A stretch of DNA of 32,923 nt from Laspinema palackyanum D2c (lineage in GTDB: Bacteria; Cyanobacteriota; Cyanobacteriia; Cyanobacteriales; Laspinemataceae), in contig NZ_JAMXFD010000037.1 in the NCBI RefSeq assembly GCF_025370875.1, positions 19,434 to 52,356 of the forward strand, given 5' to 3'. Positions 14,244-32,244 of this stretch are shown here, in pieces. The translations under genes and the position numbers were made by a program. Under the pieces are notes generated by a model. It worked only from the letters and a program-made list of their open reading frames with translations, was not told the DNA's origin and did not search any database. Each line of letters opens with the position of its first letter. The stretch's first letter is position 1.

Positions 14244-15245
14244 ATGTTGATGAATGTCGAAGAATTATTGCGGCGCTATACAGCCGGAGAAACCAATTTT
14301 AACGGGGCCAGTCTCTGGGGTGCAAACCTTCGCGGGGCGGATTTAATTGGGGCGAAATTACGGGGAGCGGACCTCCACGGAGCGGACCTAATTTTTGCCT
14401 ACTTGAGCCGAGTCAACCTGAGTGCAGCCTACTTAGTCAGTACCAAACTCAGTGGTGCCAACCTCAATCAAGCCAATCTCTCCGGTGCCAATCTCAGCGA
14501 TGCGGACCTACATGGGGCGACCCTCCAAGGTGCCGATCTTCGCAAAGCAAACCTCAATTTAGCCAATCTACTGGATGCGAACCTCAGCGATGCGGATTTG
14601 CGCGGAACCACCTTGAGCGGGGTTTGTTTGCGCGGAGCCTGTTTGCGCGGGGCCAACTTCCGGGAGGAACGGCGGATCTACAGTGCGGCGAACTTGCGGG
14701 GTGCGGATTTACGGGGTGCGGATTTGCGCGGAGTCAACCTTAGCGGTGCGGACTTGACGAAGGCGGATTTAAGTGGGGCAAATCTCACCGAAACGAACTT
14801 GCGCGGGGCGAATTTGGAACGGGCAAAAATGGCCTCAGCAATTGTTAACGGAGGGTTTTTGAGTGATGCCAATCTATCTTATGTAGATTTGAGCGGGGCT
14901 TGTATGACCAATGTCAAGCTAGAACGAGCGCTATTAGGCGAGGCGAATTTGGAGGGAGCTAAACTGGATGTGGCGATCATCACGGATGCCAAACTGGGGA
15001 AAGCCAACCTATCCGGGGCAAATTTAACCCGGGCGAATCTATCCCGGACGGATTTGAGTCGGGCGAATCTGTCTCATGCGCTGTTGAATGAGGCGAATCT
15101 ATGTGAGGCATATTTGGCCCGAACGAATTTAATGCGGTCCAATTTGACTAAAGCGAGCTTAATCCGAGCAGAAATGAGCGGCGCGAATACTGCCGGGGCG
15201 TTATTTAGCCAGACGACGATGCCGAATGGGGATGTGCAGAATTAA
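14244..15245 (+). CDS. Pentapeptide-repeat protein
   Basis: A 333-aa protein of near-continuous A(D/N)LxG pentapeptides, predicted to form a right-handed quadrilateral beta-helix. The N-terminal MNVEELLRRYTAGETNFNG is the usual cyanobacterial cap. The five-residue register is broken near residues 140-150 by REERRIYSA and again near AIVNGGFLSD, which likely form loops or a bend. Known pentapeptide proteins include gyrase-binding DNA mimics and thylakoid or cytoplasmic scaffolds; none is specifically indicated. ATG 14244 (MLMN) and ATG 14250 (MN) are both possible, and GAGG favours the first. There is no signal peptide or membrane segment. It lies between the unrecognised acidic protein and the carotenoid-type oxidoreductase. 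Confidence 0.9.
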   Translation: MLMNVEELLRRYTAGETNFNGASLWGANLRGADLIGAKLRGADLHGADLIFAYLSRVNLSAAYLVSTKLSGANLNQANLSGANLSDADLHGATLQGADLRKANLNLANLLDANLSDADLRGTTLSGVCLRGACLRGANFREERRIYSAANLRGADLRGADLRGVNLSGADLTKADLSGANLTETNLRGANLERAKMASAIVNGGFLSDANLSYVDLSGACMTNVKLERALLGEANLEGAKLDVAIITDAKLGKANLSGANLTRANLSRTDLSRANLSHALLNEANLCEAYLARTNLMRSNLTKASLIRAEMSGANTAGALFSQTTMPNGDVQN

Positions 15246-17278: not shown

Positions 17279-17404
17279 ATGGAGCGATCGCGCCACTCTT
17301 ATTCCGTGCAGTTACCTCGTGCCAACATAAACGATTTCTTCGCCGGAACTACCGTTTTGGTGGATCGGTTGAGTAACGAAGATGAGGGTGTCAGCATTCT
17401 ATGA
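17279..17404 (+). CDS. Candidate 41-aa ORF coupled to the CHASE4 kinase gene
   Basis: ATG at 17279 opens a 41-codon frame that ends with TGA at 17402-17404, overlapping the kinase ATG (17401) as ATGA. The product begins MERSRHSYSVQLPRANINDF and is not a family I recognise. The four-base overlap is the arrangement typical of translational coupling and is the main support. Against it, there is no clear Shine-Dalgarno sequence and the frame is short. It could be a leader peptide, a small protein or chance. Confidence 0.35.
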   Translation: MERSRHSYSVQLPRANINDFFAGTTVLVDRLSNEDEGVSIL

Positions 17405-20400
17405 AATTGCGAAAGAAAATACTGATTATAGTCGGCACGACCTTGTTAGGTCTAAATGTCGTGCTGTACGCTACAGCATCGAGTATTTTACTGGGAGACT
17501 TCAAAGAATTAGAACAGAAAGTCGTCCATCAAGATGCAGTCCGAGGCTTACAGTCCCTCCAGCAGACCCTTAACGAACTGGAATCCATCGCTCGCTATCA
17601 TGCGGAATGGGACGATACTTACAGCTTTATCACCCCGGGAGACCCCAATTACGTTAACTCCAATTTTGGCAATGAAACCTTCCTTCAATTAAATCTGAAT
17701 CTGTTGCTAATCCTGGACGAACAAAGAAAACCTGTTTTTAGCAAAGCCTTTGATTTCCAACAAAAGGTAGAAATCCCTATGCCAGGGGTCATTCAAGATT
17801 TAGCCTCGGCTTATCAACAACAACTTGAGAAAAAATTCACCGAAACCGGACACTACAACCACCCCATCAGTGGCATAGTCCTCCTCCCCCAGGGACCGGC
17901 CCTGATTGCGGCTCAATCCATTCTCACCAGTCAAGGAGAGGGTCCGTACCGGGGGACTTTATGGGTCGGACGCTTTCTGAATCAGCCGGAGATCGATCGC
18001 CTCGCGGATCTGACCCAATTATCCCTTTTGATTTATCCGATGAGTGCTTTGCCACCGGAATTAGACGGGGTGAGAACTCAGTTAGAGGAGTCGAACCCAT
18101 CGGCAACTCCCTCAGAACCATTCCAGAGGATGGATTTAGGGGGACTTCGGGGGCGATCGCCCATCGTGGTCAAAGCCCTCAGCGAGACAGAAATGGCCGC
18201 CTATACCGCCATCCCAGCGATCGCCAGCAATAACCGTTTACTCCTGCAAGTCACCCACAATCGCGAGATTTACGCCAAAGGTAAAACCAGCGTCCGCTAT
18301 TTTATCGGGGCTCTGTTAGGGGTAAGTCTCGGGTTTAGTGGTCTAACCCTGCTCTTATTTGAAAAATTAGTCCTCTCGCGACTGACGGTGCTCACCCGAA
18401 AAGTTGAACGCATCGGCGACAAAGGGGACCTGTCCATGCGCGTTAAAATTGTAGGTCATGATGAACTTTCTAGTTTAGGGATGACCATCAACGGGATGCT
18501 CAAAGCCCTGCAAGAGTCCCAGTATAAGCTCAGAGAAAGTGAAGAACGCTATCGCTTAATGGCGGAAAACTCCACCGACATGATTTCCCGCCATACACCA
18601 AAAGGCAAGTTTATTTATGTCTCCCCCGCTTGCCATTCGTTATTGGGATATGAACCCGACGAACTGATCGGCTTTAACCTCTATGACTTTTTCCATCCCG
18701 AGGATGCCAAGACCCTAGCCAAATCTTACTTGGCAATGGTCAAGGGTCAAGTCAGTTATACGGTTAGCTACCGGATCCGCCATAAATATGGTCATTACCT
18801 GTGGTTTGAAAGTACCAGTCGCACGGTTCGCAATCCCCAGACTGAAGAAATCGAAGAATTAGTCGCCATTTCCCGGGATATCACCGAACGCCATCAAACG
18901 GATGAGGAACTGCGGGAAAGTGAAGCCTCGATTCGAGCGCTTTATAAAATCACATCTTCGCGTAAACTCAGATTTGAGCAACGGTTGCAACGGTTACTGG
19001 TCATGGGAAAACGGCGGTTTGGGTTAAGCGTGGCGATTTTATCTCGGATTAAAGGCGATCGCTATGAAATCATCGCGGTTGAATCCCCGGACAATACCCT
19101 CCAACCGGGCGATCGCTTCTCCTTGAGTCAAACCTACTGTCGCGAAACCCTCCGCCTCAAAGAACCCCTCTATTTTGAATCCGTCAGTGTCACGCGCTGG
19201 CACAGCAAACCCACCCAAACCCCCTTTCCCCAAGAAGCCTATATTGGGACAAGGGTGATTGTCGGGGGCAAAATCTATGGCACTCTCAGCTTTTCCAGTA
19301 GCACCCCCCTGGGACGCCCGTTTAAAGCCGTGGATAAAGAACTGCTCAAACTCATGGCTCAATGGATTGGCAGTGAAATCGAGCGTCGGGCTGCCGCTGC
19401 GGATTTAGCCCGGGCTAGAGACGAGGCCCTCGCTGCCACTCGCGCTAAAAGCGAATTTCTCGCCACCATGAGCCACGAAATCCGCACTCCCATGAATGCG
19501 GTCATTGGCATGACTGGATTACTCCTGGATACAAACCTCAACCCCGAACAGCGCGATTTTGTCGAAACCGTCCGCGCCAGTGGGGATGCCCTGCTCACCA
19601 TTATTAACGATATCCTCGACTTCTCCAAAATTGAGTCCGGGAAACTCGACCTAGAACAGCAACCCTTTAACCTGCGCTCTTGCATTGAAGATTCCCTAGA
19701 TTTACTCGCCTCCAGAGCCGCCGAAAAAGGAGTAGAGTTGGCCTATCTCATCGAACCCTCGACTCCGGAAATGATTATCGGCGATGTCACCCGAGTCCGT
19801 CAAATCTTGGTGAATTTGCTCAGTAATGCGGTGAAATTCACGGAAAAAGGGGAAGTGGTCGTCTCGGTGAGTGCTTCGACTATTCACCCGCAACAGGCGG
19901 TAGGAATTGGGACTGACCGTTTAATCCTCAAGGATCAGGAGACGGAGAACGGTCATCTCCCCCAGGATCTGATCCAGGATCTCAGCACCAGGACCCCCCC
20001 CTGTCAAATCCAATTTACCGTGTCCGATACCGGCATTGGCATTCCCCCAGAACGGATGAATCGGCTGTTTAAGTCGTTTTCCCAGGTGGATTCCTCAACC
20101 ACTCGCGAGTATGGTGGCACGGGGTTGGGTTTAGCCATCAGCAAGCGTCTGAGCGAATTGATGGGGGGTCGGATGTGGGTGGTCAGTGGCGAGGGAGTCG
20201 GTGGCGACCCGGACCCGGCCTTTCAATGGCCGATCGCCCCTGCCATTCCTGACAACTTCTCCCCTCTTCCCGACCCCGAGCAAAGTATCTTTACCTTGAC
20301 CGATGCCAAATCCGCTCATCCCGATACCCCACCCACTGGCTCGACATTCTATTTCACCGTGATGGCAACTCCCGCAGTCAATCCTTTGCCGGTGGACCTA

Positions 20401-21714
20401 AATGGCACTCAACCGTCTTTGGCGGGTAAGCGGGTGCTGATTGTGGATGATAATGCCACAAATCGCCAAATTTTAACCCGTCAAGCCTTGTTTTGGGGCA
20501 TGAAGCCCAAGGCAGCGAGTTCGGCCCGGGAAGCCCTAGATTGGCTGCAAAATTCGGAAACCTTTGACATTGCCATTCTGGATATGCAAATGCCTCAAAT
20601 GGATGGGATTACCCTAGCGTCCTACATCCGAGGAATTGTCAAAAATCGTGAATTCCCCCTGGTGATGCTGACTTCTATAGGGAGACAGGAAGTAGACTTG
20701 CCTCATAAGGTCCCCTTTGCTGCGTTTCTAAATAAACCGATTAAACAATCCTATCTGTACAATGTGTTGGCGGGAATTTTTGGGGGAGTGCCGATTCTTT
20801 CTCGTCCGACTCTTATGAACGCCCTCGCCATTGACCCCCAGATGGCTCAACAAAAACCGTTACGCATTTTGTTGGCGGAGGATCATTTAGTCAATCAAAA
20901 GGTGGCCCTGCAAATTTTGCATCGGTTGGGGTATCGCGCTGATGTGGCGGGGAATGGGATTGAAGTGTTGCAAGCATTGGACCGGCAACATTATGATGTG
21001 GTCCTGATGGATGTTCATATGCCGGAAATGGATGGGTTGGCGGCAACTCGGCAAATTTGTCAAGATGCCCGAGATGGCCGACTGCTGCACAAACCGCGAA
21101 TTATTGCGATGACGGCGAATGCGATGCAGGGCGATCGCGAACTCTGTCTGGAAGCGGGGATGGATGACTATATCAGTAAGCCGATCCGAATGCCGGAATT
21201 GGTGGAAGCCCTGGCCCTCTGTCCGTTGGATTCCGACCCTTCCGCGCTGATGATGCCGACTTTATCCCCAGGGGATTCGGATGCTTCCAAGTCGAAATTA
21301 TCCGGGTCTGACCCCGAAAATCCTCCGGGTTCGCCGTCCAAGGCGATCGCAGAGCCGGTTCTGAATCAGGCCATGTTAGCCTCGTTACGCGATATTGAGG
21401 CTCTTGAAGAGGTGATCGAGATTTATTTACAGGAGTCTCCCAAGCTGATTGACCTGCTCACGGTGGCGATCGCCCAGGATGATAGTTTTGAACTGCAAGA
21501 AGCAGCGCACTCGCTGAAATCAACGAGTGCGGCAGTGGGTGCAATGAGTTTGGCCGATCTGAGTCAGCAACTTGAATCGATTGGGCGATCGCATCACAAC
21601 ACCCAAACCCCTCCCCCCCCAGAAGTTACCGATATTTTCTCTGACCTGATTATGGAATACCAACGGGTCAAAACGGCACTGAATTGGGAACTGGAACAGG
21701 GGGAATCTACCTAG
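17401..21714 (+). CDS. CHASE4-HAMP-PAS-GAF hybrid histidine kinase with two receivers and HPt
   Basis: A 1437-aa inner-membrane phosphorelay kinase. A membrane segment (ILIIVGTTLLGLNVVLYATA) is followed by a periplasmic CHASE4-like domain (about 33-280), a second membrane segment (about 298-322), HAMP, PAS (about 376-497) and GAF (about 510-660). The kinase core has phospho-acceptor His692 in MSHEIRTPMNAV, N-box LVNLLSNAVKFTEKG, G1 DTGIGIPPE and G2 GGTGLGLAIS. Receiver 1 is intact (D1016/D1017, D1061 in DMQMPQMDG), as is receiver 2 (D1161, D1204 in DVHMPEMDG). A C-terminal HPt has His1370 in AHSLKSTSAAVG. All relay residues are present, so the protein can pass phosphate internally and on to an unlinked regulator. 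The GAF lacks cyanobacteriochrome cysteine motifs. The ATG is preceded by a possible coupled small ORF, and the stop overlaps the convergent next gene. Confidence 0.93.
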   Translation: MKLRKKILIIVGTTLLGLNVVLYATASSILLGDFKELEQKVVHQDAVRGLQSLQQTLNELESIARYHAEWDDTYSFITPGDPNYVNSNFGNETFLQLNLNLLLILDEQRKPVFSKAFDFQQKVEIPMPGVIQDLASAYQQQLEKKFTETGHYNHPISGIVLLPQGPALIAAQSILTSQGEGPYRGTLWVGRFLNQPEIDRLADLTQLSLLIYPMSALPPELDGVRTQLEESNPSATPSEPFQRMDLGGLRGRSPIVVKALSETEMAAYTAIPAIASNNRLLLQVTHNREIYAKGKTSVRYFIGALLGVSLGFSGLTLLLFEKLVLSRLTVLTRKVERIGDKGDLSMRVKIVGHDELSSLGMTINGMLKALQESQYKLRESEERYRLMAENSTDMISRHTPKGKFIYVSPACHSLLGYEPDELIGFNLYDFFHPEDAKTLAKSYLAMVKGQVSYTVSYRIRHKYGHYLWFESTSRTVRNPQTEEIEELVAISRDITERHQTDEELRESEASIRALYKITSSRKLRFEQRLQRLLVMGKRRFGLSVAILSRIKGDRYEIIAVESPDNTLQPGDRFSLSQTYCRETLRLKEPLYFESVSVTRWHSKPTQTPFPQEAYIGTRVIVGGKIYGTLSFSSSTPLGRPFKAVDKELLKLMAQWIGSEIERRAAAADLARARDEALAATRAKSEFLATMSHEIRTPMNAVIGMTGLLLDTNLNPEQRDFVETVRASGDALLTIINDILDFSKIESGKLDLEQQPFNLRSCIEDSLDLLASRAAEKGVELAYLIEPSTPEMIIGDVTRVRQILVNLLSNAVKFTEKGEVVVSVSASTIHPQQAVGIGTDRLILKDQETENGHLPQDLIQDLSTRTPPCQIQFTVSDTGIGIPPERMNRLFKSFSQVDSSTTREYGGTGLGLAISKRLSELMGGRMWVVSGEGVGGDPDPAFQWPIAPAIPDNFSPLPDPEQSIFTLTDAKSAHPDTPPTGSTFYFTVMATPAVNPLPVDLNGTQPSLAGKRVLIVDDNATNRQILTRQALFWGMKPKAASSAREALDWLQNSETFDIAILDMQMPQMDGITLASYIRGIVKNREFPLVMLTSIGRQEVDLPHKVPFAAFLNKPIKQSYLYNVLAGIFGGVPILSRPTLMNALAIDPQMAQQKPLRILLAEDHLVNQKVALQILHRLGYRADVAGNGIEVLQALDRQHYDVVLMDVHMPEMDGLAATRQICQDARDGRLLHKPRIIAMTANAMQGDRELCLEAGMDDYISKPIRMPELVEALALCPLDSDPSALMMPTLSPGDSDASKSKLSGSDPENPPGSPSKAIAEPVLNQAMLASLRDIEALEEVIEIYLQESPKLIDLLTVAIAQDDSFELQEAAHSLKSTSAAVGAMSLADLSQQLESIGRSHHNTQTPPPPEVTDIFSDLIMEYQRVKTALNWELEQGEST

Positions 21715-24643: not shown

Positions 24644-26479
24644 TTACCACTGGGGAGAACCGGCTAACAATTGCGCGATCGCCTCTGGATCTAAGGGTTT
24701 AGAAAAGAGGTATCCCTGGGCGAAATCACAGCCTAATCCTCGGAGTTTTTCTAACTGGATGGGAGTTTCCACCCCTTCGGCGATCGCAATCATGCCCATT
24801 GTGTGAGCGATTCCAATAATACCAGGAACCAATCCGCACTGATGTTCCTTACCATCGATGCGCTGGATAAATGAACGGTCAATTTTGAGGACATTGACGG
24901 GAAATTCTTCGAGGTAACTTAAGGAAGAATAGCCGGTGCCAAAGTCATCAATGCTTAATTCAATCTGGCAGTCGCGAATTTGGTGGAGAATGTCCAGGGT
25001 GGCTTGGTTTTTATTGGCGATCGCACTTTCGGTAATTTCCAGTTTAAGCATTTGAGGATTGATTTGGGTGGATTCCAGGAGTTCCCGCAGATGCTGGATA
25101 AACGAAAATTGCAGAAAATGCCGCGCTGATAAATTGACACTACAAGTCACCTTGTCATTAATCAGGTTTTGATGTTGCCATACTTGGAGTTGTCCAACAG
25201 TTTCTTGTAATACCCACAGGTCAATTTGGGCGATTAAACCCGTTTCTTCGGCGATGGGGATAAAGTCGATGGGAGAGATAAATCCCCGGGTGGGATGTTG
25301 CCAGCGCACGAGGGCTTCAAAGCCATAAATTTGGCCCGTAGTTAGGGAAATAATCGGCTGATAATAAACTTTAAACTCCTGTCGTTCTACGGCGCGTCGC
25401 AAGTCGTTTTCAAGTTGGAGACGGTTTAATGCTTCGTCATGCATTCCCGGATCAAAGAGATAATATTGGCCTTTTCCTAGGGCTTTGGCGCGGTACATGG
25501 CGGTGTCCGCATCCCGGAGGAGATATTCGGGTTTTTCGTGGTAGAAACTGCCGAGGGTAATGCCGATACTGGCATTAATAAAGACTTCATACCGGGAGAG
25601 TTGAAAGGGTTCGGTTAAAGAGTTTAAGATGCGATCGGCGATGGTTTGGGCGCGATCGCGGGTGGGGAGTTCTTCCACGAGGATTGCAAATTCATCTCCC
25701 CCTAACCGCGCTAAGGTATCTTCTTCTCGGAGGGCGGATTGGAGGCGTTTGCCAATGGCAATCAGGAGTTCATCTCCGACGATATGACCGAGAGAATCGT
25801 TGACGACTTTAAAGCGATCGCAGTCTAAAAACAGGACGGCAAACTGATACTGTGGGTTGGCTTTGCGGAAGGCGATCGCCTGGTCCAATCGTTCCATAAA
25901 TAAAGCACGATTGGGTAAATTTGTCAAGGGGTCATGAAGGGCTAAATGGAGTAACCGTTCTTGGAGTTGCTTGCGTTCCTTGATTTCCTGAATTAGCTCT
26001 TGATTGGACTGTTCTAACTGGAGGGTGCGCTCTTGGACCCGAGTTTCCAGTTCGGCATTGAGTTGCTGAATTTTTAATTCGGCGTCCCGGCGCAATAGTT
26101 GGGTTTGGATGCGCGCTAAAACCTCTTCTAATTGAAAGGGTTTACTAATATAATCAATGCCCCCAACATTAAAGGCTTTGACTTTATCAAAGGCATCATC
26201 TAAGGCACTCAAAAAAATCACTGGAACTTCACAAGTGGCTTCATTTCCTTTTAAAATTTCGCAAACTTGATACCCGCTCATATCCGGCATCATGATATCC
26301 AGTAAAATCAGGTCCGGGACGACCACGCGACAGGCTTTGAGGGCCATTTGACCATTTAAGGCTTTGCGAACTTTATAGCCTTCTTCGGTTAAAATCGTGG
26401 CCAGATAGCGGAGATTATCTTGGGTATCATCCACGATGAGAATATCTTTTTGGAGCAGTTGAACAGATTCGGCGTTCAT
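24644..26479 (-). CDS. Response regulator with GGDEF and EAL domains (c-di-GMP turnover)
   Basis: A 611-aa cytosolic protein: receiver (1-~125; acidic pocket D17/D18, phospho-acceptor D61 in LLDIMMPDMSG, K113), coiled-coil linker (~130-180), GGDEF domain (~180-345) and EAL domain (~355-605). The cyclase motif RLGGDEF (GGDEF 260-264) is intact, with inhibitory-site R251-x-x-D254 five residues before it. The phosphodiesterase residues are also present: EAL 388-390, NLSARH, EITES, DDFGTGYSS, KIDRSF and AEGVETP. Either activity is therefore possible, with phosphorylation likely setting the balance. The ATG overlaps the upstream kinase stop as ATGA, with AGGAGG inside the kinase end, so translation is coupled and that kinase is the probable phosphodonor. 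Confidence 0.95.
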   Translation of the reverse strand: MNAESVQLLQKDILIVDDTQDNLRYLATILTEEGYKVRKALNGQMALKACRVVVPDLILLDIMMPDMSGYQVCEILKGNEATCEVPVIFLSALDDAFDKVKAFNVGGIDYISKPFQLEEVLARIQTQLLRRDAELKIQQLNAELETRVQERTLQLEQSNQELIQEIKERKQLQERLLHLALHDPLTNLPNRALFMERLDQAIAFRKANPQYQFAVLFLDCDRFKVVNDSLGHIVGDELLIAIGKRLQSALREEDTLARLGGDEFAILVEELPTRDRAQTIADRILNSLTEPFQLSRYEVFINASIGITLGSFYHEKPEYLLRDADTAMYRAKALGKGQYYLFDPGMHDEALNRLQLENDLRRAVERQEFKVYYQPIISLTTGQIYGFEALVRWQHPTRGFISPIDFIPIAEETGLIAQIDLWVLQETVGQLQVWQHQNLINDKVTCSVNLSARHFLQFSFIQHLRELLESTQINPQMLKLEITESAIANKNQATLDILHQIRDCQIELSIDDFGTGYSSLSYLEEFPVNVLKIDRSFIQRIDGKEHQCGLVPGIIGIAHTMGMIAIAEGVETPIQLEKLRGLGCDFAQGYLFSKPLDPEAIAQLLAGSPQW

Positions 26480-29400
26480 TGGCCCTCCTGTTGAGTTAAT
26501 TCCTCAATCAGATCAAACTGATAGTTATGGGCTAACTCGGCTAAGGCTTGGGATAAGGGGGCCAGATCCGGGGGAATCTCTTCGAGTAAGCGTAAAATCA
26601 AATCATCACTGCATTGCATGGCCGCATCATAAAGCTGATGAATCCAACTTTCGGGCATAATTTTCAAAGCCTCCGGGGAGAGGGAATACAGGGGTTTAGA
26701 ACTATTTGGGGGGGAGCCTTTCTGGTCCGGGGAGAGGTCTTCAAAAATATAGTCAATATTCAGATATTTGCCGATGGTTTCGAGCAAAAAGTCTTCTTGA
26801 AACGGCTTGCGAATAAAGTCATCGCAACCGGCATCTAAAATCATTTTTCTTTCTTCCTCAAAAGCACTAGCCGTTAAGGCGACAATGGTCGTTTTTTGAC
26901 CCTGAACGGTATTTTTAATATGTCGGGTGGCTTCATAACCATCCATGACGGGCATTTGCATATCCATTAAAATTAAGTGAGGTTTCCAACTTTCATAAAC
27001 CGCGATCGCCCCTTGGCCGTTCTCCGCCTCTTGCACTTGAAATCCGATGGATTGCAAGATTGTCTTCAACAATAGACGACTTTCAAAAGCATCATCCACG
27101 ACTAAAATGCGAGATTCCTTCCCCTGAGCTTGGGGGGCGATCGCCACTGCACGGCGCTTGGTTTGGCGAGTTTGAACCTCCCCCTCGCTACTCGGTGCGA
27201 TCGCCACGGCAAAGGCAAACACCGTTCCTTGCCCCACAGTGCTGGTGACCTGAATATCGCCTCCCATTAATTGTACGAACTTTCGGCTAATTGGTAAACC
27301 CAGGCCCGTCCCTTGCTGAGATTTACGTCCTGTTTCTGTTTGTCCAAAGGGTTCAAACAATTTCCCCATTTCCTCGGGAGCAATCCCTGGACCCGTATCC
27401 TCAATTTCCAAATATAAGAACTTCCCCTGATTACCGGAGTCCGAAAAATCCCCCGGGTCAGGATTCACCCCCGTCAAGGCATCTTTCACCTCAATCCGGA
27501 GGATAACGCGACCCGTTTCGGTAAACTTAATCGCATTCCCTACAATATTAATCAGCACCTGACGTAACTTGCTCTCATCGGTTTTCACAAACTGAGGAAG
27601 GGTCTCGCAACCCTCAAAAATAATCTGAAGTTGCTTGGACTCCGCCTTGAGTTGAAACATCTCATTTAACGATTTCAGCAAATTCAGTAAATCAAAATTT
27701 ACCGGATTAAAACTCATTCTCCCCGCTTCAATTTTTGACATTTCCAACACATCATTAATTAAAGCTAAAAGATGCCCTCCGGCCCGATTAATAATTTTTA
27801 AATGCTCGTGATTTTCCGGCTTCAGCGAGGAATCCCGGGCCAAAACTTGAGTAAACCCCAAAATTGCATTCAGGGGAGTTCGCAGTTCATGGCTCATATT
27901 CGCCAGAAACTCACTTTTGGCCCGGTTAGCCGCATCCGCAGCGAGGGCGGCTTTTTGGAGGGCGTGGGATTGTCGCTGAGTTTTGTCCAGTAACTCCGCT
28001 TGCTGGAGGGCCACTCCCAACTGATTGCCAATTTGCACCACCACTTTAATTTCTGCTTCTTTCCAATGGCGAGGACCGCTATTTTGATAGCTGGCTAATA
28101 ATCCCCAGAGTTTATTCCCCGAAAAAATAGGCACAATAATATAGGCTTTGGCTTGAAATTGCTCTAGGATATTCAAGTAAGACTCATCAAAACCCTCATG
28201 GTAAACATCTTCAACCGCTAAATAAGTCAAGCCTAAATTCCAGGTTTCAGTTCGGGCGGATTGCATATAGCAATCTTCCAGTCCAATCTCCTTGTCCCCT
28301 AGCAACTCCGAGTCATCCCCGTTTAGGTTCACCGCAGTTTCGGGTAAATTTTGGATGTTATCCATTAAAGAAATCCATTCGGAACCCGTGGATTCGGCCA
28401 CCACCTCACCTCGCCAGTCGTCATGAAAATGGTGAACTAAGACCCGATCGCACTTGAGCACCTGGCGCAATTCCCGGGTGGTTGCCGAAAAAATCGTTTC
28501 CAAATCCAGGGTTTCGCGCATCCGTTGAATCACTTGAGACAGGGCACGTTCTCGTTGGACACTTTCCTGTAATGCTTCTTCCGCTTGTTTGCGTTCCGTA
28601 ATATCCGTTAAAGTCCCCGTCAGTCGGTAAGCTTCCCCTGCTTCATTCCGGATACATTTACCCTTCACTTCCACCCAAATCCAACTCTTATCTTTCCGTT
28701 CCATGCGGTGGGTATGATAATAGTATAGCGGATTTTGCCCTTGCACATGGTCTTGCAGGGTTTGCATTGCCACGGACAAATCGTCTGGGTGGACCTTGTT
28801 AAACCAAGTGCTAACCCGATAGGGTAATTCTCCCTCCTCATAGCCTAAAATTTGCATCCAGACTGGAGAGTAATAAATTTGGTCATTTTTTAAATCCCAA
28901 TCCCAAATCCCATCATTTGTCCCGGATACGGCTAATTTAAACCGTTCCTCACTTTCGCGCAGAGCATCTTCCGCCCTCTTGCGTTCCAACAGTTCAGTTT
29001 TAGCTTGCTCAAACAGCGTACATTGTTGAATGGCGATGGACAATTGCACCGAAAGCTGCCGGAGAGATTCAATTTCCGATTCATGCCATTGTCTTTCGCC
29101 GCTACAGTGATGAGCAATCAGCAATCCCCATAATTGTTCCCCTTGTCGCAGTGGAACCACAAGATTGGCTTGAACTGCAAACCGACTGAGAAGTTCTACA
29201 TGGCATTCCGACAGTCCCGCCTTGTTAATATTATCAATGGTGCGAATTCGACCTTGCGCGTACAGGGGAATATGGGTTTCAATGAAACAGCGATCTTCGA
29301 TTTCAATCCCTTTGACGGACATCCAGTCAGAACCCACGGATTCAACGGCAATCACCCCACCCCAGTCCGGGTTAAAACGATAAATTAAAATGCGGTCCGT

Positions 29401-31962
29401 GTTTAAAAATCCGCGAACTTCGTTGACGGCAGTGTCTAGGACTTCTTCTAAGTCAAGAGAGGATCGAATCCGTTCCTGAATCGAACTCACCAGACGTTCC
29501 CGTTTAAGCTGCTGCTGTAAGGCAATTTCCGCCCGTTTGCGTTCACTAATATCGGTAATAGTGCCCAGATAGCCTTTGACTACGCCATCATCGCCGATTT
29601 CGGCGATCGCCTGCCCGATCGCCCAAACCACAATCCCATCAGGACGGACAAAGCGATATTCTGATTTAAACGGCACCCGCGTTTCAGCGGCTAAAAACCA
29701 CTCCGATTGCACCCGCTTCAAATCATCGGGATGGAGATTAGCAATCCAACTTTTGCCGATCGCCCGTTCCAAAGAAAGTCCCGTCAACTCACTCCAACGT
29801 TGGTTAACATAACGACAATTGCCCTGAGCATCGGTATGAAAAATACAAACCGGAGAGGCTTCAGCCAGGGTTTGGTACCGCCGCTGACTCTCATCTAAGG
29901 CCGCTTCCGCAGCTTTTCGAGGCGTAATATCTTTGTGGGTGCCACTCATGCGTAAGGGAATGCCAGATGGGTCTCGTTCTACTACTTTACCGCGAGAAAG
30001 AATCCATTTCCATTCCCCAGACTGCGATCGCATTCGTAATTCCCGTTCATAGACCGGGAGAATACCCGCTAAATGGTCCTGTAATGCTCTTAGCGTCTTT
30101 TTTTTGTCCTCGGGATGTAACAAATCCTCCCAAATTTGATAGGAGTTGCCAATTTCCTCCACGTCATACCCCAGCATCCGTTTCCATTGCGGGTCAAAAT
30201 AGGTTTTTCCCGTGGGAATTTGCCAATCCCAGATGCCTAAATCACTGCCTTCCAAGGCGAGTTGTAAGCGCCGTTCACTCTCACTCAGGGCCGCTTCTGC
30301 CATCTTTTGACCAATGGAGGACCCTAACTGAGTGGCAACCGCCCCCACCAAGGCGATCGCCCGTTCATCTCGGGGACTTTCTGTGCGTTTAAAGAAGGTT
30401 AAAACTGCTAGAATCCCATTCCCTCGGATAATGGGTACGGCAAAACAGGCTTTTAATCCTTGTCTTACTGCCATTAAAGCATCGTCGAAGGGTTTAGTTT
30501 CCTCGGTCAAATTTTCAATCCATTCCGGTTGCCGCGACTCCCAAACCCGTCCGGGAAGTCCTTCCCCCAACGGATAAGTCAGGGATTCCCGTTGCAGGCG
30601 GAACGCTTCTACATCAGGTGCGGGGTAATACCAACCGGGACGATAGGTGAGGATTTGCTGATTTTCATCGGGAAGCCACGCCTCTGCTACATCCCAATTA
30701 ATGGTCATACAAATTGAGCGTAAGACAGAGGCTATTGCTGTTTCTAAATCCGGTGCATGACGGATGGCTTGATTGGTATCTAACAGCAACCGAATTTCGT
30801 CTTCACTTTGCTTGCGATCGCTGATATTACTAAAGGTACAAACGACTCGTTCAACTTGGCCCGATGCGTTTAGTTGGGGGTCCATATTCAGCAGCAACCA
30901 TACGGTGTCTTTTTTCCCCCACCGACAGATTCCCGTGACTTGATTTTGCACAGGTTGACCCTGGGCAGTCGCCTTATGTAGGGGATGCTGTTCTTGAAGC
31001 GAAATTGTGCCATCCAGGGAGAGAATTTGCCAATTGAACTCGAAGGCACTTTTCCCTTGTAACTCGGATTCGGGAACATCAAGCAGTTCACTCGCCAGGG
31101 GATTACTTAATACAATGGTGCCCTTTTCATCGAGAAGTAATACCCCAACGGACATATTTTCCACCAGAGTTCGGAACCGGGTTTCACTTTCTTGGAGGGC
31201 CTGTTCTCGTAATAGGCGGGATTGGTAACGGCGATCGGCGAAGGAAGTAACCAGGGTGCCAATCAACAGAATCAGCGTTCCCACGCCGATTTGCATCGCT
31301 AACCAGGATTGGTCCGCCCCTTCAATCAGAATCGCTTCTGGGTTAGAAATTGCTGCAAAACAGGTGGCCCACATTCCGGTATAGTGCATCCCGGCGATCG
31401 CCACTCCCATAATTCCAGCACTCCCCAGTTTAACCCATTCCCGATGAGGACTGAGGGAGTCGCGAACCTGAAATGCCAACCCTAACGCCGTAGTTGAGGC
31501 AAAAATGGCGACTGCCACAGACAGGGCTACCCCCCAAGGATTGTAATGCAGGGTTGCCGGGACCTGGACTGCTGCCATTCCTAGATAATGCATCGAAGCA
31601 ATGCCCAATCCCATGACAATCCCCCCTCCCACCAGGAGGCGGACCCTCAACTGCTGCCGATTGTACAGCCACATCGCCAAAGCCGAAGCGACAATGGCAT
31701 CCACCCAAGATAACAGGGTCAGGGGGATATTGTAGGCTGTGGGGACGGGTAACTGTAACGCCAACATCGCGATAAAATGCATCGACCAGATGCCCGTTCC
31801 CATCGCCACCGCACCCCCCACACTCCAGACTAAGCGCGATCGCCTCGAAGAGTTCGGATTAACCCGTCCGGCTAAATCCAACGCCGTGTAAGAAGCAACC
31901 ACCCCAATGATAAAAGAAAGGGCGACTAAAACCGGCTCATATTGACCCTGAATCATCTCCAT
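26476..31962 (-). CDS. MHYT-PAS-GAF hybrid histidine kinase with a cyanobacteriochrome-type GAF
   Basis: An 1828-aa protein. The N-terminal seven-helix MHYT domain has MHFIAM (61), MHYLGM (124) and MHYTGM (192), proposed in other proteins to hold copper or sense diatomic gases. Then follow PAS (~258-385), GAF1 (~390-555), PAS (~560-690), PAS (~690-815), GAF2 (~820-985), PAS (~1000-1130) and GAF3 (~1135-1330). The kinase core has His1358 (MSHELRTPLNAI), G1 DTGPGIAPEE and G2 GTGLGLPIS. A receiver with D1667 (DMQMPVMDG) and a helical tail (~1740-1828) follow. GAF2 has D890-R-C892-F and C920-H921, the two-cysteine signature of DXCF cyanobacteriochromes. GAF3 is related but has Ser-Tyr in place of Cys-His. 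The frame is open to a TTG at 32025, but ATG 31962 is preceded by AGGGA. It is first in an operon with the GGDEF-EAL gene. Confidence 0.94.
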   Translation of the reverse strand: MEMIQGQYEPVLVALSFIIGVVASYTALDLAGRVNPNSSRRSRLVWSVGGAVAMGTGIWSMHFIAMLALQLPVPTAYNIPLTLLSWVDAIVASALAMWLYNRQQLRVRLLVGGGIVMGLGIASMHYLGMAAVQVPATLHYNPWGVALSVAVAIFASTTALGLAFQVRDSLSPHREWVKLGSAGIMGVAIAGMHYTGMWATCFAAISNPEAILIEGADQSWLAMQIGVGTLILLIGTLVTSFADRRYQSRLLREQALQESETRFRTLVENMSVGVLLLDEKGTIVLSNPLASELLDVPESELQGKSAFEFNWQILSLDGTISLQEQHPLHKATAQGQPVQNQVTGICRWGKKDTVWLLLNMDPQLNASGQVERVVCTFSNISDRKQSEDEIRLLLDTNQAIRHAPDLETAIASVLRSICMTINWDVAEAWLPDENQQILTYRPGWYYPAPDVEAFRLQRESLTYPLGEGLPGRVWESRQPEWIENLTEETKPFDDALMAVRQGLKACFAVPIIRGNGILAVLTFFKRTESPRDERAIALVGAVATQLGSSIGQKMAEAALSESERRLQLALEGSDLGIWDWQIPTGKTYFDPQWKRMLGYDVEEIGNSYQIWEDLLHPEDKKKTLRALQDHLAGILPVYERELRMRSQSGEWKWILSRGKVVERDPSGIPLRMSGTHKDITPRKAAEAALDESQRRYQTLAEASPVCIFHTDAQGNCRYVNQRWSELTGLSLERAIGKSWIANLHPDDLKRVQSEWFLAAETRVPFKSEYRFVRPDGIVVWAIGQAIAEIGDDGVVKGYLGTITDISERKRAEIALQQQLKRERLVSSIQERIRSSLDLEEVLDTAVNEVRGFLNTDRILIYRFNPDWGGVIAVESVGSDWMSVKGIEIEDRCFIETHIPLYAQGRIRTIDNINKAGLSECHVELLSRFAVQANLVVPLRQGEQLWGLLIAHHCSGERQWHESEIESLRQLSVQLSIAIQQCTLFEQAKTELLERKRAEDALRESEERFKLAVSGTNDGIWDWDLKNDQIYYSPVWMQILGYEEGELPYRVSTWFNKVHPDDLSVAMQTLQDHVQGQNPLYYYHTHRMERKDKSWIWVEVKGKCIRNEAGEAYRLTGTLTDITERKQAEEALQESVQRERALSQVIQRMRETLDLETIFSATTRELRQVLKCDRVLVHHFHDDWRGEVVAESTGSEWISLMDNIQNLPETAVNLNGDDSELLGDKEIGLEDCYMQSARTETWNLGLTYLAVEDVYHEGFDESYLNILEQFQAKAYIIVPIFSGNKLWGLLASYQNSGPRHWKEAEIKVVVQIGNQLGVALQQAELLDKTQRQSHALQKAALAADAANRAKSEFLANMSHELRTPLNAILGFTQVLARDSSLKPENHEHLKIINRAGGHLLALINDVLEMSKIEAGRMSFNPVNFDLLNLLKSLNEMFQLKAESKQLQIIFEGCETLPQFVKTDESKLRQVLINIVGNAIKFTETGRVILRIEVKDALTGVNPDPGDFSDSGNQGKFLYLEIEDTGPGIAPEEMGKLFEPFGQTETGRKSQQGTGLGLPISRKFVQLMGGDIQVTSTVGQGTVFAFAVAIAPSSEGEVQTRQTKRRAVAIAPQAQGKESRILVVDDAFESRLLLKTILQSIGFQVQEAENGQGAIAVYESWKPHLILMDMQMPVMDGYEATRHIKNTVQGQKTTIVALTASAFEEERKMILDAGCDDFIRKPFQEDFLLETIGKYLNIDYIFEDLSPDQKGSPPNSSKPLYSLSPEALKIMPESWIHQLYDAAMQCSDDLILRLLEEIPPDLAPLSQALAELAHNYQFDLIEELTQQEGQ

Positions 31963-32244
31963 AATTGTCCCTGAGATTGAATTTTTTGGCTTAAAAAATA
32001 TTATGAAATCCAGCGCAATTATCAACCCATTTTTGATAACTTTGGTTAAAATTAATTTTTAATGCCCTACTTTAATTTCCAAGTTAACAATACAACAATC
32101 TCTAATGGTCAATTATAAAACACCTCAAAAGGGGTCCAAGAGTCACCGCTCTTGTTGAGAATGCCACTTCTTCCCAGAAGCCCCTCAGTGTTGCCTTTGT
32201 ATCCCTGTTCGACTAACCCCTAAAGCAGGCTGGGAATATGCCTG

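Follow-up and report, generated by a model that had tools for sequence, protein, structure and literature searches.

An apparent photosensor swap in a putative light-to-c-di-GMP gene pair of Laspinema palackyanum

The window, meaning the whole stretch of 32,923 nt analysed here, comes from the filamentous cyanobacterium Laspinema palackyanum D2c (GCF_025370875.1, NZ_JAMXFD010000037.1, 19,434-52,356 of the forward strand), and its minus strand carries a large hybrid sensor kinase gene followed by a response regulator gene; the kinase stop and the start of this second gene overlap by 4 bp. The kinase begins with MHYT repeats at its N-terminus, continues through PAS and GAF domains, and ends with HisKA, HATPase_c and receiver domains, an order read from Pfam. 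In window coordinates, the features are:

26476-32025, minus strand: MHYT hybrid sensor kinase ORF, 1849 aa from a TTG start or 1828 aa from the ATG at 31962
31261-31938 (approximate span), minus strand: MHYT membrane domain with its repeats (Pfam PF03707)
30319-30750, minus strand: GAF1, a generic GAF_2 domain (Pfam)
29017-29514, minus strand: GAF2, a DXCF-type cyanobacteriochrome domain (Pfam, tree and fold)
27997-28560, minus strand: GAF3, a cyanobacteriochrome GAF of the insert-Cys type, both bilin cysteines lost (tree and alignment columns)
27721-27921, minus strand: HisKA domain with H1358 (Pfam)
27205-27579, minus strand: HATPase_c domain (Pfam)
26773-27108, minus strand: C-terminal receiver domain (Pfam)
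24644-26479, minus strand: response regulator REC-GGDEF-EAL, 611 aa, downstream of the kinase

Residues are numbered from the ATG at 31962, which is the TTG numbering minus 21. The MHYT repeats score 163 bits against a Pfam cut-off of 21, identifying an MHYT membrane sensor, and the three PF03707 matches in the source genome all fall inside this ORF. Elsewhere in the window, a pentapeptide-repeat protein of 333 aa is encoded at 14244-15245 on the plus strand.

GAF2, whose best Pfam GAF stretch runs from residue 858 to residue 999 in TTG numbering, contains the following codons:

29293-29295, minus strand: D890
29287-29289, minus strand: C892, second cysteine, in the DRCF motif
29284-29286, minus strand: F893
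29260-29262, minus strand: Y901
29203-29205, minus strand: C920, canonical bilin cysteine, in the CH motif
29200-29202, minus strand: H921

The initial annotation had proposed a DXCF-type photoreceptor at this place, and its reading holds up well: with the kinase read from the ATG, D890-R-C892-F, Y901 and C920-H921 are all present, the coordinates were right, and the 28 residues that it had counted between C892 and C920 are correct and equal the spacing in TePixJ. The two domains align without a gap around the motif, share the tyrosine at +9 and the cysteine at +28, and are identical at 58 of 143 residues. GAF2 has both the D-x-C-F second cysteine and, 28 residues away, the canonical Cys-His of the DXCF class, TePixJ being the one characterised member compared. 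In addition, its AF2 model (mean pLDDT 90.2) has the bilin-binding GAF fold, matching TePixJ (4fof, 4glq) at 1.2 Å over 143 columns in Foldseek, in which the top match is 6oap. Among the best 60 of 110 phmmer matches in the PDB, cyanobacteriochromes come first and phytochromes next.

The spacing of the two cysteines does not reflect chance, because both columns are kept in relatives. Among the best 79 distinct loci, taken from 378 confirmed in named genomes, cysteine fills the second-Cys column in 67 and the canonical one in 75, with 63 having the two together; at 60% identity or more, both occur in 33 of 34. Purifying selection is also strong, with a mean dN/dS of 0.063 over 21 pairs of seven orthologues, the second lowest of 11 stretches measured. 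It is very likely that GAF2 binds a bilin. An alternative is that it does so with C892 outside the photocycle, as a single-cysteine red/green or similar sensor in which the DRCF cysteine is incidental. The best PDB relative, 6oap, reads D-Q-Y-F at this motif (among the best 60 of 110 matches), and tyrosine occupies the second-Cys column in 10 of the best 79 relatives; yet we consider this unlikely given the prevalence of cysteine in that column, the two cysteines of nearly all close relatives, and the residue two before motif D, which is isoleucine in 60 of the same best 79 of 378 and tryptophan in none. A red/green XRG assignment was likewise tried and rejected: the tryptophan of WXDXXL, which marks XRG sequences in the classification passages of PMC11284453, is replaced in GAF2 by Ile888, and the domain falls outside the XRG/NpR3784 branch.

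Phylogeny points the same way. In a midpoint-rooted tree of 79 rows, 39 of them drawn from the 79 relatives, GAF2 sits in a 25-row clade (support 98/94) in which every row has DxCF except OWN_L007 (QECF), and it groups with DXCF rather than XRG sequences. A separate branch holds AnPixJg2, NpR6012g4, Slr1393g3, 6oap, miRFP670nano and the insert-type GAFs, while TePixJ, the only characterised DXCF row of the tree, lies outside the 25-row clade on a long branch within a larger group. We thus regard GAF2 as a likely dual-cysteine DXCF photoreceptor, a reading that sequence, tree and predicted fold support well.

Phycocyanobilin should be available as chromophore, since the source genome encodes both PcyA and heme oxygenase. 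Its one bilin reductase match is assigned to PcyA with 349 bits (cut-off 206); of two heme oxygenase matches that pass the Pfam cut-off, one was also run against NCBIfam and matched nothing there. In typical DXCF domains, according to the sections of PMC11284453 on this class, phycocyanobilin is isomerised to phycoviolobilin and the photocycle runs between a blue and a green state, and DXCF photoproducts range from teal through orange in the corresponding part of PMC6628166. DXCF GAFs vary in chromophore and colour; for GAF2, the safest forecast from its sequence is a blue-absorbing dark state. A DXCF GAF as such is ordinary in this genome, since D.CF with Cys-His/Tyr at 28 occurs in seven of 30 distinct matched stretches (33 own-genome loci), GAF2 included, the 15 weaker of 45 matches lying outside the loci examined. 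The same genome also encodes a non-MHYT kinase (L218:1783-6522, on C18) in which an insert-type GAF comes after a GAF2-like domain that reads QECF and PCL and lies on a long branch.

Between GAF2 and the kinase core sits GAF3, which by sequence is nearest to red/green XRG structures and has a loop insertion before the D motif, as insert-Cys domains do. Two features within it bear on its state:

28276-28362, minus strand: GAF3 insertion loop, without the cysteine that homologous GAFs in MHYT kinases of other genera all have here (25 of 25)
28180-28182, minus strand: codon of S1261, in the canonical bilin-Cys column of the alignment

Counted by alignment column with duplicates dropped, both the loop cysteine and the canonical cysteine are present in 25 of 25 outside kinases, that is, MHYT kinases fetched from other genera with a GAF3-type GAF next to the kinase, as against none of the seven aligned members of the source genus, in which the canonical position is serine in five and alanine in two. 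The insert-Cys motif CxxR/K, described as poorly conserved in the passages of PMC5240096 that define it, is found in 21 of the 25 outside GAFs, and a canonical Cys-Tyr follows. An eighth genus member, G212, also lacks both GAF3 cysteines and has DRCF..CH in GAF2; its ORF begins at a contig end, and MHYT was not found in its genome (87% complete). In the sister genus (G008), by contrast, the kinase preceding the REC-GGDEF-EAL gene keeps both GAF3 cysteines; no GAF2-like domain was found in G008 at E 1e-50, and the MHYT part, on another contig, presumably belongs to that kinase. In the source genome itself, another non-MHYT kinase (L217:747-3920, at C18:2268-2837) has an insert-type GAF with both loop and canonical cysteines. 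Insert-type GAFs are broken by one in-frame TGA in L212 and L213 (G037 and G060), two genomes of the same family.

GAF3 nevertheless appears to be maintained. Its mean dN/dS of 0.109, beside 0.098 for HisKA to HATPase (21 pairs, seven orthologues), indicates that it is still constrained as a protein. The loop evolves fast (0.41), and we considered this as a sign of lost function but dropped it, as some control pairs that keep the loop cysteine are likewise variable (L148/L149, loop 0.66 and rest 0.95; L147/L150, 0.97 and 0.97). The GAF3 model is poor (pLDDT 70.3, with residues 70-109 below 50), so that its fold can be said to resemble cyanobacteriochrome GAFs and nothing finer. Perhaps GAF3 still binds a chromophore, either non-covalently or through another cysteine one residue after motif D (DCYM), and the protein has two photosensors. 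That cysteine occurs in six of the seven aligned genus members and in G212, which leaves some bilin contact possible; GAF3 is under purifying selection; and a DXCIP lineage without the canonical cysteine is still called cyanobacteriochrome in the relevant part of PMC6628166. We judge this to be quite unlikely all the same, as the DCYM cysteine misses the DXC position by one residue, L142 of the same genus has tryptophan there instead, and the motif around it has gone from DTYLQET-like to DCYMQSAR. We would therefore keep GAF3 as a domain that has probably lost its bilin and acts as a relay. That GAF2 is itself a bilin-free relic, leaving the kinase under the control of MHYT and the PAS domains, is very improbable, for although GAF3 of the same protein shows that such loss occurs and one or both cysteines are missing in 16 of the best 79 of 378 relatives, GAF2 keeps both cysteines, the histidine and the +9 tyrosine under strong purifying selection.

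The downstream gene suggests an output. GGDEF and EAL of the 611-aa partner both score far above their cut-offs in a profile search, so light would probably feed c-di-GMP, and the two overlapping genes are presumably co-transcribed. The pairing recurs: a full-length homologue (at least 540 of 611 aa, on the same strand) follows 20 of the 33 MHYT kinases that have a DXCF-type or insert-Cys-type cyanobacteriochrome GAF, namely all seven genus members and 13 of 26 others, at least 1.6 kb downstream being covered in the kinases without one. The receiver part only is matched behind L164, L167, L179, L186 and L187, and L086 has a weak match; nothing was found within 2.6 kb, or up to the end of the stretch (at least 1.6 kb), behind L151, L153, L156, L157, L159, L171 and L188, so that L153 is without the gene despite having both sensors. 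None follows the less similar kinases L169, L189 and L194, and a GGDEF-EAL ORF of 619 codons lies behind the kinases of G212 and G008.

Hybrid kinases usually signal to a separate receiver by way of an Hpt protein, and Pfam found no Hpt domain in the kinase ORF. At 17401-21714 on its plus strand, the window encodes another large hybrid kinase, which combines CHASE4, PAS and receiver domains with an Hpt domain and could possibly serve as an Hpt relay.

How common is the combination of sensors? MHYT places were picked mainly by long open frames, 95 of 291 genomes having a match among the matches listed, and the scan comprised 57 fetched loci plus the window. An MHYT ORF was present in 56 of the 57 (L170 had none); L181 and L035, L145 and L040, and L144 and L086 are the same places, and duplicates were dropped before counting. 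At 40 bits, no cyanobacteriochrome-like GAF was found in L154, L155, L158, L161, L162, L163, L165, L166, L175, L176, L177, L180, L191, L192, L195, L196, L197 and L198, and L168 and L193 gave weak matches only. Among the MHYT kinases scanned, the union of MHYT with a cyanobacteriochrome GAF is nonetheless a recurrent architecture, a point that the initial annotation had missed, as it had the loss of both bilin cysteines from GAF3 and the overlapping REC-GGDEF-EAL gene with its homologues behind many such kinases. L169, L189 and L194, although less similar, also have a DXCF GAF, and one MHYT kinase GAF (L178:1124-3379, in G208) keeps DDCF but has glutamine at the canonical cysteine place.

In a tree of MHYT plus kinase core, from which rows without the exact HisKA pattern such as L190 were left out, the six kinases used whose GAF3 is without bilin cysteines come together in a single clade (100/100), which is nested in a group of 11 rows (99/96) whose internal branching is weak. 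This group includes kinases with both sensors intact (L145, L153), with the DXCF GAF only (L144) and with the insert-Cys GAF only (L143, L146). With the kinase core alone and rows added, the clade with the blinded GAF3 (now seven rows) is again recovered at 100/100, while the 11-row group is not and the wider grouping does not resolve. The simplest reading is that a DXCF GAF was gained, followed by reciprocal loss of either sensor; separate gains of DXCF GAFs by MHYT kinases are the alternative. A single origin of the DXCF GAF among these kinases finds no clear support, as their GAF2 copies intermix with copies from other proteins in the GAF2 tree and the branching in the 11-row kinase clade is weak.

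It is tempting to speculate that the colour channel of one light-to-c-di-GMP gene pair was replaced in nature, and we lean, if only somewhat, toward the following history. The common form of the MHYT kinase, sensing near-UV/violet-type light through an insert-Cys GAF, would have been the starting point; one lineage would have recruited an upstream DXCF GAF; and the source genus would then have dropped the chromophore of the old GAF while keeping its protein as a relay, while related lineages would have kept both sensors, the DXCF one only or the insert-Cys one only. If true, kinases of one kind would display a natural series in which one sensor replaces another, and the membrane MHYT sensor would provide a second input.

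We propose that the protein in the window is an MHYT hybrid histidine kinase anchored in the membrane, which senses light through GAF2 as a DXCF cyanobacteriochrome with two cysteines. C920 would hold phycocyanobilin stably, perhaps isomerised to phycoviolobilin, and C892 would add reversibly to bilin C10, so that the dark state would absorb blue light and the photoproduct light of longer wavelength. GAF3 would descend from an insert-Cys cyanobacteriochrome whose two bilin cysteines were lost in the source genus, and it probably serves in signal relay only. The kinase would probably control the REC-GGDEF-EAL protein of the overlapping gene, and hence c-di-GMP, by phosphorylating the partner receiver directly or through an Hpt protein. 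We put the probability of this proposal as a whole, from GAF2 as photosensor through a blinded GAF3 to control of REC-GGDEF-EAL, at about three in four.

What is unusual is the setting: an MHYT kinase with a c-di-GMP-type partner gene, a DXCF GAF, and a GAF3 whose bilin cysteines are lost. In function, as far as it can be inferred, the locus looks like a light-to-c-di-GMP gene pair in which one photosensor has taken the place of another. Retuning of cyanobacteriochromes has mostly been studied as mutations within one bilin pocket; here, entire sensors seem to be exchanged and the kinase is kept. A GAF without bilin cysteines has been retained under purifying selection between a live sensor and the kinase, which makes the relay role of such a GAF directly testable, and nature appears to offer four versions of one kind of photoreceptor, namely with both sensors, with the DXCF sensor alone, with the insert-Cys sensor alone, and with DXCF plus a dead GAF. 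MHYT, for its part, gains a light-sensing partner domain. The further suggestion of the initial annotation, that MHYT would add a gas or metal signal to the light input, is conjectural. The characterised Oscil6304_2705 of Oscillatoria acuminata is, judging by rough gene position, probably a different gene from the orthologue considered here. No description of MHYT and cyanobacteriochrome as a combination was found in the literature searched, with subscription journals mostly outside; in the sections of a c-di-GMP review that concern them, the two are treated apart and MHYT activity is called unknown (PMC8846402), and, besides that review, MHYT occurs together with cyanobacteria and GAF in a survey of Azospirillum.

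Several known systems resemble parts of this one. The GAF domain of TePixJ (PDB 3vv4, 4fof, 4glq) is like GAF2 in its DXCF and CH cysteines 28 apart, its +9 tyrosine and its fold, but it belongs to a protein named a methyl-accepting chemotaxis protein rather than to an MHYT hybrid kinase, and it does not form one clade with GAF2. The dual sensor histidine kinase 6oap is also a kinase and has the closest solved GAF by sequence and fold (among the best 60 of 110 matches), yet it has tyrosine at the second-Cys position. The insert-Cys domains NpF2164g3, NpR1597g2, Mbr3854g4 and Mbl3738g2, as presented in the pertinent part of PMC5240096, share the loop insertion with GAF3 and its homologues, the insertion and the motif being the basis on which GAF3 is placed in this class; in other genera the homologues have both the loop and the canonical cysteine, whereas GAF3 of the window has neither. 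Finally, light-to-c-di-GMP photoreceptors such as SesA/Tlr0924, known from titles cited in the c-di-GMP review (PMC8846402), likewise couple a cyanobacteriochrome to c-di-GMP enzymes, but in the present case GGDEF-EAL is part of a response regulator of its own, next to a membrane hybrid kinase.
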